Source: Microcaldota archaeon (GTDB lineage: Archaea; Micrarchaeota; Micrarchaeia; Micrarchaeales; Micrarchaeaceae). From it: a DNA stretch of 64,000 bases. Location: contig JAJZBL010000003.1 of the NCBI GenBank assembly GCA_021798935.1, positions 62,001 to 126,000 on the forward strand, in the 5' to 3' direction. The translations under genes and the position numbers were made by a program. Shown here one piece after another: positions 56,665 to 58,772 of the stretch. The notes under the pieces are model-generated. The model did not search any database, was not told where the DNA came from, and worked only from the letters and a program-made list of their open reading frames with translations. The stretch's first letter is position 1, and every line of letters starts with the position of its first letter.

Positions 56665-56815
56665 AGAAATCCCTACTCCTTTTGGGTCTTTAAATATTTT
56701 TCATATTACCTTTATTAATACAGCTGCTTTTAATGAATAAATTTTACATTGAATAAATTTTAGTAAATTAAAGAATAATTTAAATAGATTGAATTTCATA
56801 ACATAATAGATTGCA

Positions 56816-57547
56816 ATGAGAGATAGAGTTAAAACAGGTATAAAAAATTTTGATGCTATAATAGCAGGTGGTATACCAAGGGGCAATCAAGTTGCATTGG
56901 CAGGAGGACCAGGAGCAGGTAAGACTCTTTTTTCATTTGAGTATCTTTACAATAATGCAAAAGAAGGAAATGTAAGCTTGATGTTTTCATTAGAAGAAAC
57001 CTCAGATATGATAATTGAAAATGCAAAGGCAGCTTTTCCTGATTTCAATGATATAGATGATTTGATAAGTCAGAACAAACTGGTTATTTATGGATCGGAA
57101 AAAACCGGCCAGTACGTACAGAGGGATACAGATGGAGGGAGTTATTCGTTCAATGAGCTAGTATCAGGTATAGGTTCTCTTGTAAGCTCATATAATGCTA
57201 GCAATCTGGTGATTGACTCAATAACTGTAATCAAGCTTATGATAAAAGACAAATTATCTTATAGGCAACTGACGATGGACCTTATCAATAATCTGCGCTC
57301 ACAAAATGTAACATCTTTGATGACTATTGAATTGGACACTGCTACAAAAGAGGAGATACAATTTAAATCTGAATTCTTCATGTATGATGGCATAATTTCA
57401 CTTTATTTAGAAGGAGAAGGCAACAATAGAGTTCCTATATTGGAGGTTATTAAGATGAGAGGGAGCGACCACAGTTTCAGCACATACCCTTATGAAATAA
57501 AAAGCAATGGTATAAAGGTTTTATCATTACCACAGATGAATGATTGA
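56816..57547 (+). CDS. KaiC-like RecA-superfamily ATPase (paralog 1)
   Basis: RVKTGIKNFDAIIAGGIPRGNQVALAGGPGAGKTLFSFEYLYNNA; FSLEET; LVIDSIT. Confidence 0.92.
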   Translation: MRDRVKTGIKNFDAIIAGGIPRGNQVALAGGPGAGKTLFSFEYLYNNAKEGNVSLMFSLEETSDMIIENAKAAFPDFNDIDDLISQNKLVIYGSEKTGQYVQRDTDGGSYSFNELVSGIGSLVSSYNASNLVIDSITVIKLMIKDKLSYRQLTMDLINNLRSQNVTSLMTIELDTATKEEIQFKSEFFMYDGIISLYLEGEGNNRVPILEVIKMRGSDHSFSTYPYEIKSNGIKVLSLPQMND

Positions 57548-57561
57548 TAATTGGTGTGAAT

Positions 57562-58281
57562 ATGGATAGCGGGGTAATAAATAGGATAAAAACTGGCGTT
57601 AAAGGGCTGGATAGTATGGTTGGCGGAGGACTTCCCGAAGGATCGCAGATCTTATTCTTGGGATCTCCAGGGGCTGGAAAAACCCTTCTTTCGCTTGAAA
57701 TACTGTACCATAATGCGAGGCTTGAAGTCCCATCTACCTTCATAACTAGCGAAGAAAGAAAGGATGCCTTGATTAATAATATCAAAAATGCTTTCTACTC
57801 TTTTGATGATTATGAAGATTACATAAATAGCAAAATGATACAGATAAACCACAAAGCCTTGATAGAAGGATTCAAAAGCAGAGAGAACTTCGAAAAATTC
57901 ATAAGCGATTGCATATCGGATATTCAGGCTAACAAATCAAAGATCGCAGTCTTCGATTCTATAAGCAGCTTAAGGCCTATTATGGAGGATGATAGGACTT
58001 TTACAAGGTCAATAACCTATATGACAGAGGCACTTAGGGACATTGGGGTAACCTCAATATTAACGTATGAAATTAATCAGAGTATAAGCAACAGAGATCC
58101 ACTGAGCATCGGACTTTATAGCACATCTATGTTTGATGGGATAATAGTGCTAAGTATGAATCGCAATGAAGGTGCTACACAATATGCTATAGAAGTAACA
58201 AAGCTCAGAAATTCATCGCATAAATTATCAAGCTTGCCTTACCAGATAACAGATTCAGGCTTTGATGTATTATCAGATTGA
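57562..58281 (+). CDS. KaiC-like RecA-superfamily ATPase (paralog 2), start revised to MDSGVINR after GGTG
   Basis: RIKTGVKGLDSMVGGGLPEGSQILFLGSPGAGKTLLSLEIL; ITSEER; AVFDSIS. Confidence 0.93.
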   Translation: MDSGVINRIKTGVKGLDSMVGGGLPEGSQILFLGSPGAGKTLLSLEILYHNARLEVPSTFITSEERKDALINNIKNAFYSFDDYEDYINSKMIQINHKALIEGFKSRENFEKFISDCISDIQANKSKIAVFDSISSLRPIMEDDRTFTRSITYMTEALRDIGVTSILTYEINQSISNRDPLSIGLYSTSMFDGIIVLSMNRNEGATQYAIEVTKLRNSSHKLSSLPYQITDSGFDVLSD

Positions 58282-58772
58282 TGATTTTCATGGAAGAGGG
58301 AAAAAGTTTAACACAGATACTAAATGACGACATAGATTTTATTAAGAATTTGATTTCATTCTTATTAAGCACGCAGGTCAAAAGAGGATTATCAGAGATT
58401 AACAATTTCGTACCTGCAAACCTTGCAGGTAATGTACTTCCTTACTTCGTAGCTGCTGGAATTCTTGATATAACTGGAAAAGATATAAACAAAAACAATA
58501 TAGAACGTCTTTTCAATGCTGCAGGAATTACTGTAAATAGGGATATTCTAAATGGTATCGCAGGCATAAAGTTCAGGAACCATCTCGTATATGTAGTATC
58601 AATATTATTCATATTGACAAGCGGGCAAGAGGTCACAATGAATAAAATAATAAATATGGCTATAGCATTTGATATTGATCCCGATATTGCACTTGCCAGA
58701 GAATCTGTAGATATATTTAACCAAGTAGGAAAACAGTATGGATTCCCTACGATAAAACTCGATACTGCTTGA
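58278..58772 (+). CDS. Small helical protein resembling a tandem of P1/L12-type N-terminal domains
   Basis: YFVAAGILDITGKDINKNNIERLFNAAGITVNRDILNGIAGI and YVVSILFILTSGQEVTMNKIINMAIAFDIDPDIA; coupled to kaiC paralog 2. Confidence 0.65.
   Translation: MMIFMEEGKSLTQILNDDIDFIKNLISFLLSTQVKRGLSEINNFVPANLAGNVLPYFVAAGILDITGKDINKNNIERLFNAAGITVNRDILNGIAGIKFRNHLVYVVSILFILTSGQEVTMNKIINMAIAFDIDPDIALARESVDIFNQVGKQYGFPTIKLDTA

Follow-up and report, generated by a model that had tools for sequence, protein, structure and literature searches.

KaiC domains form rings that are driven by ATP. In archaea they occur as single-domain KaiC-like ATPases (PF06745/COG0467), of which we take PH0186, PH0284, SSO2452 and ArlH to be examples, and which are likewise found in operons with a lineage-specific partner. 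Most of these partners are, to our knowledge, unknown. The archaeal KaiC-like ATPases have reportedly been proposed as signalling hubs by Makarova et al. in 2017 (cited in PMC5847659), in what is said to be the main survey of such hubs. A second point of comparison is the ribosomal stalk protein P1 (TIGR03685, PDB 3A1Y; P1/P2, PF00428). Two P1 chains together clamp an amphipathic helix, that of the P0 spine, and the acidic tail of P1 recruits translation factors. The stalk dimers sit on this spine (PMC3794596). Here we describe a three-gene locus that encodes two KaiC-like ATPases, designated KaiC-A and KaiC-B, and a protein designated P1L, which carries two P1-like modules.

The two KaiC-type ATPases and their locus

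The window, a stretch of 64 kb (G000:C6:62001-126000), comes from a genome of 857 kb in 10 contigs. In the list of its open reading frames, KaiC-A, KaiC-B and P1L lie in one direction, all on the + strand (Table 1). P1L is most likely 160 aa long, because the Met encoded by ATG 58290, which lies 8 nt past the KaiC-B stop, is conserved in 7/7 orthologues. The 4-nt overlap between KaiC-B and the third gene in the original prediction depends on the TTG at 58278 and is not conserved across orthologues; the gap between the two genes is 12-16 nt in G010 and G007. The TATA-like TTTAAATA is a possible promoter of a leaderless operon.

Table 1. Features of the KaiC-A, KaiC-B and P1L locus, in window positions
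Feature	Position	Strand	Evidence or remark
TATA-like TTTAAATA	56779..56786	+	~30 nt 5' of first ATG; read from sequence
KaiC-A, single-domain KaiC-like ATPase, 243 aa	56816..57547	+	ORF, PF06745, motifs
KaiC-B, the other single-domain KaiC-like ATPase, 245 aa if begun at TTG 57544 (ATG 57562 is an alternative start)	57544..58281	+	
P1L, tandem P1-module protein, 160 aa from conserved ATG	58290..58772	+	ORF opens TTG 58278
P1L N-terminal long helix, residues 7-40	58308..58409	+	AlphaFold; not P1-like by profile
P1L module 1, ~residues 49-98	58434..58583	+	P1 N-terminal domain helices 50-61, 68-77, 84-93
P1L module 2, ~residues 99-150	58584..58739	+	P1-like helices 99-110, 117-126, 133-150

A full PF06745 domain was matched above the cut-off in both KaiC-A (E 1e-51) and KaiC-B (E 6e-38), and the ATPase motifs are conserved in both types. 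KaiC-A carries Walker A GGPGAGKT, the EE pair, Walker B VIDS, SEFFMYDG and KMRGSDH, and KaiC-B carries Walker A GSPGAGKT, EE, Walker B VFDS, LYSTSMFDG and KLRNSSH. The original prediction of two tandem single-domain KaiC-like ATPases, each with the Walker A motif, the EE pair and the DSI of Walker B, was therefore borne out. The full KaiC domain, both Walker motifs, the EE pair and the K.R motif are features shared with the archaeal single-domain ATPases. By these motifs, KaiC-A and KaiC-B are two diverged RecA/KaiC ATPases predicted to be catalytically intact. The KaiC tree places the A-type (PEFFxYDG, KMRG) apart from the B-type (GLYGTxMFDG, KLRN or KMRR); its row OWN3, a membrane ORF picked in error, is left out of account. 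The Thr-Ser of LYSTSMFDG in KaiC-B (58114-58140) aligns with the S431/T432 phosphorylation sites of KaiC; the B-type genes linked to P1L retain the S431-aligned Thr, whereas one divergent B branch that is not linked to P1L lacks it. KaiC-A has no phospho-acceptors at the S431/T432-aligned positions. We considered and abandoned the idea that the KaiCs themselves present a helical tail resembling P0, as both KaiC-A and KaiC-B are without an extension.

One membrane-protein family adjoins A-type KaiC genes, and also P1L in G050 and G059. The third KaiC of the window's genome, an A-type gene at L069 (~G000:C5:81003-81701), adjoins a Cys-rich membrane protein. L069 also contains a second membrane protein, which is divergent, has an outside domain and is related to KaiC neighbours in L090 and L091; the locus resembles a unit of a KaiC and a membrane sensor. 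In L031 and L034, the membrane proteins that adjoin KaiC or P1L show relationship to the one in L091 or to each other.

Similarity of P1L to the ribosomal stalk protein P1

As a single sequence, P1L matched TIGR03685 at residues 56-88 of the 164-aa form (E 2e-4) and 3A1Y in the PDB at E 0.34; it had no match in a Pfam search or in a single-protein scan of wider genome contigs. A family profile was built from an alignment of 25 members (A1), 21 of which matched TIGR03685 (best E 4e-13). When 177,635 PDB sequences were searched with this profile, stalk proteins were the only matches at E<0.1; module 1 matched archaeal P1 (3A1Y, E 9.6e-9) and module 2 matched yeast and human P2 (E 0.0014-0.015). 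Authentic P1, recognized by length and sequence, was the secondary match of the profile throughout the set of 60 related genomes. Most of these matches had E-values between 1e-7 and 5e-11; they covered module 1 and, in a few genomes, module 2. Profile-profile comparison with hhalign aligned module 1 with P1 (P 3.7e-12), module 2 with P1 (P 6.2e-11), and the two modules with each other (P 3.4e-12); the N-terminal helix matched neither module. The original prediction had placed a P1-like stretch at residues ~56-98 and a second, more diverged copy at ~105-148. The first was recovered by TIGR03685 and, far more strongly, from the family profile, and the second stood at P 6e-11, its range about right (99-150 in 160-aa numbering). 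The profile comparison with ribosomal P1/P2 that had been suggested as a check revealed no better unrelated fold.

The AlphaFold model of P1L (pLDDT 92.3) consists of the long N-terminal helix, a short helix at residues 43-48 and two three-helix sets. Foldseek superimposed a stretch of 42 residues of the model on chain A of 3A1Y at 0.8 A; the probability of this match, 0.91, was the highest among the matches. The E-value of this match was poor (3.2), as expected because the stretch is short and helical. A test for amphipathicity of the N-terminal helix was borderline (p 0.055).

P1L keeps the three-helix P1 module Y..AA.LL...GK.I...N....L.AAGI, including the characteristic Gly and Tyr, and both of its modules match P1 profiles as N-terminal dimerisation modules. 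Unlike ribosomal P1, it has two fused copies of the module and an extra N-terminal helix, and it lacks both the acidic Ala/Lys/Glu hinge and the C-terminal GLASLFG/GFGLFD tail, each of which is present in the true P1 of the order. The absence of the acidic tail had been correctly predicted. TIGR03685 gave P1L 21.7 bits, against a cut-off of 100, and covered only profile positions 3-35; with this score and its two modules, P1L fails to qualify by sequence as a ribosomal P1. Since the genome's own tailed P1 is encoded elsewhere (C5:165061-165366), away from P1L, P1L is not the stalk protein. At the level of sequence, these comparisons indicate that P1L arose by duplication of the P1 N-terminal dimerisation domain and gained a new N-terminal helix.

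Neither Pfam nor NCBIfam includes P1L as an entry of its own, and this KaiC partner is apparently undescribed. No paper joining KaiC and ribosomal P1 was found in a literature search that excluded Makarova et al. 2017, where prior mention is possible. The diverse P1L alignment contained no stretch of sufficient conservation to yield a sequence pattern for scanning genome and viral contigs.

Distribution of P1L and its linkage to KaiC genes

With presence defined as E<=1e-12, P1L was found in 68 of the 301 genomes of the phylum that were searched, all within the two families of the window's own order of Micrarchaeota. Some genomes have expanded it to about 10-20 units (20 profile matches in G038 and 22 in G050, the ribosomal P1 of each included). 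In the expanded genomes, P1L often takes the form of ~320-aa proteins of two P1L units, with four P1 modules, in tandem arrays. Diverged arrays of this kind, often doubled, occur at L102:4946-11334 and L104:3354-6700 and in L034 and L036, and several have a gene for a sugar-nucleotide epimerase, a GHMP kinase or a glycosyltransferase-like protein nearby. No relatives of P1L were found in plasmids.

A tree of 98 P1L units separated class I from class II with support of 100/100; its alignment is short (160 columns), which limits finer claims. None of the 40 class I units is linked to KaiC, compared with 21 of the 58 in class II. The orthologues of the window's trio fall into a single seven-member clade (100/97). 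Class I P1L (e.g. L041:8739-9206) has an even clearer likeness to P1 and no conserved neighbours, and it is present in G019 and G049, genomes without KaiC beyond a RadA-like match.

Same-strand operons that combine class II P1L with KaiC were found in 14 genomes and show at least five arrangements; by locus, 14 of ~39 inspected class II loci are linked. The order A-B-P1L occurs in seven genomes (G000, G001, G002, G007, G010, G057 and G170), one of which is Ca. Mancarchaeum acidiphilum Mia14. P1L-A-B occurs in three (G205, G222 and G197, with identical P1L proteins in G205 and G222), P1L-B in two (G198 and G059) and P1L-B-A-B in G050, and the operon of G185 comprises four P1L genes, a GNAT acetyltransferase gene, B and A. 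A B-type KaiC is present in 14/14 of these operons, and the A-type is missing from two. The probability of such linkage by chance is ~1.5e-14 if a background of 2% is assumed and genomes are treated as independent, and ~1e-3 if only the five distinct arrangements are counted against the same assumed background. Conserved operon linkage with a partner family, the mark of an archaeal KaiC hub, is thus seen here; the P1L operons differ from such hubs in always having a B-type KaiC, usually together with an A-type.

An exclusive A+B+P1L unit was rejected, as P1L also occurs with B alone and A+B pairs also occur without P1L. Pairs without an adjacent P1L were found in G018, G020, G026 and G038, and the genomes G018 and G026 have no P1L. 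In G026, a thioredoxin gene (L073:5033-5395) occupies the third place after the pair. Comparison of neighbourhoods across the trio genomes revealed no common flanking genes except in the close pair G001/G002. Of the three-gene synteny across DPANN that had been put forward, the linkage held, within one order of Micrarchaeota. P1L also occurs outside the trio, as a solo class exists. Neither a better unrelated fold nor a lack of conserved linkage, the two outcomes named in advance as counting against the proposal, was encountered.

Possible roles of P1L

We consider it an even call that an A/B KaiC ATPase switch has P1L as its dedicated adaptor or effector, with the P1 fold as the docking module. 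Because the P1 dimer clamps an amphipathic helix, such a role is the most likely one for P1L; and since KaiC rings are ATP-driven and P1 modules form dimers that attach to the P0 spine, we infer a pseudo-dimer that acts as a helix-docking adaptor. The three genes would form the operon of a Micrarchaeota-specific KaiC-type signalling module. By analogy with their family, KaiC-A and KaiC-B most likely form a mixed or stacked ring whose shape is set by ATP binding and hydrolysis. Modules 1 and 2 of P1L probably pack against each other as the intramolecular equivalent of a P1 dimer. P1L would bind the KaiC ring, with KaiC-B above all as its likely direct partner, and would show or hide a helix-binding surface according to nucleotide state; its own N-terminal helix or a target protein would dock there. 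In some relatives, a membrane protein that has an outside domain and is encoded next to the operon probably provides the input. In favor of an adaptor, KaiC linkage is confined to class II and a B-type KaiC accompanies P1L in every operon; against it, class I exists without KaiC, and A+B pairs exist in genomes without P1L. Two roles had originally been proposed, a signalling adaptor and a link to translation or the stalk, and the former is the better supported.

The stalk alternative holds that P1L binds the P0 spine (or P1), displaces tailed P1 dimers and lowers factor recruitment, while the KaiCs time this displacement and so link a signal to translation or ribosome hibernation. As a reading of the sequence it appears coherent, since a dimerisation domain that is kept while the factor-recruiting tail is gone is the expected anatomy of a dominant-negative stalk subunit. 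We nevertheless regard it as unlikely: the modules are fused in tandem behind a long extra helix that could itself fill the P0 site, the sequences are far diverged from P1 (~25-35% in the module), about 10-20 units per genome are ill-suited to a single P0 target, and no linkage to ribosomal genes was seen in the neighbourhoods examined.

If anything slightly less probable is that P1L constitutes a regulatory or structural family of its own, specific to the lineage, for which the KaiC operons would reflect co-regulation rather than a shared complex. The 40/40 class I units without a KaiC neighbour and the occurrence of P1L in genomes without KaiC would fit this explanation, as would the many class II doubles that stand alone; indeed, most doubled P1L genes in expanded genomes are not adjacent to KaiC. 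Co-regulation does not readily explain why linkage to one KaiC type recurs in different gene orders, with at least five arrangements.

Expansions peculiar to single genomes, and diverged doubles arrayed in tandem, are also what might be expected if fast-expanding P1L arrays served to recognize or ward off a host or virus and KaiC were the ATPase that triggers them. This appears quite improbable, as no defence genes were present among the annotated neighbours, plasmids gave no match and the trio is single-copy in each genome.

A circadian-type KaiC oscillator, with P1L as a substitute for KaiA/KaiB, has very little to recommend it. Cyanobacterial KaiC has a homologous ATPase domain, and the Thr of KaiC-B at the S431-equivalent position would be consistent with a clock. 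A KaiABC clock comprises a two-domain KaiC plus KaiB, whereas KaiC-A and KaiC-B are two separate single-domain genes rather than a CI-CII fusion, and KaiC-A lacks the phospho-acceptors. The clock was rejected when a search of the genome returned no KaiB. Least probable of all, and rejected on the profile-profile and PDB profile results, is convergence of short helices in place of homology: the modules are short (~45 aa) and all-helical and the Foldseek E-value is weak, but both match P1 independently and significantly in sequence, no competing family was found, and P1 recurs as the profile's secondary match across the related genomes.

The adaptor reading has an evolutionary counterpart, to which we would likewise give about an even chance: a stalk domain was captured, duplicated and expanded into extra-ribosomal adaptors, one branch of which became the partner of the A/B KaiC switch. 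P1L would be a KaiC partner family, supported by recurrent operons, whose origin can be traced to the ribosome stalk, and the family reaches an organism obtained in co-culture, Mia14. That a ribosomal protein domain has multiplied outside the ribosome, to about 10-20 units in a single very small genome, is apparently unrecorded. If the adaptor role is true, these archaea would have built a signalling system from a part of the ribosome.
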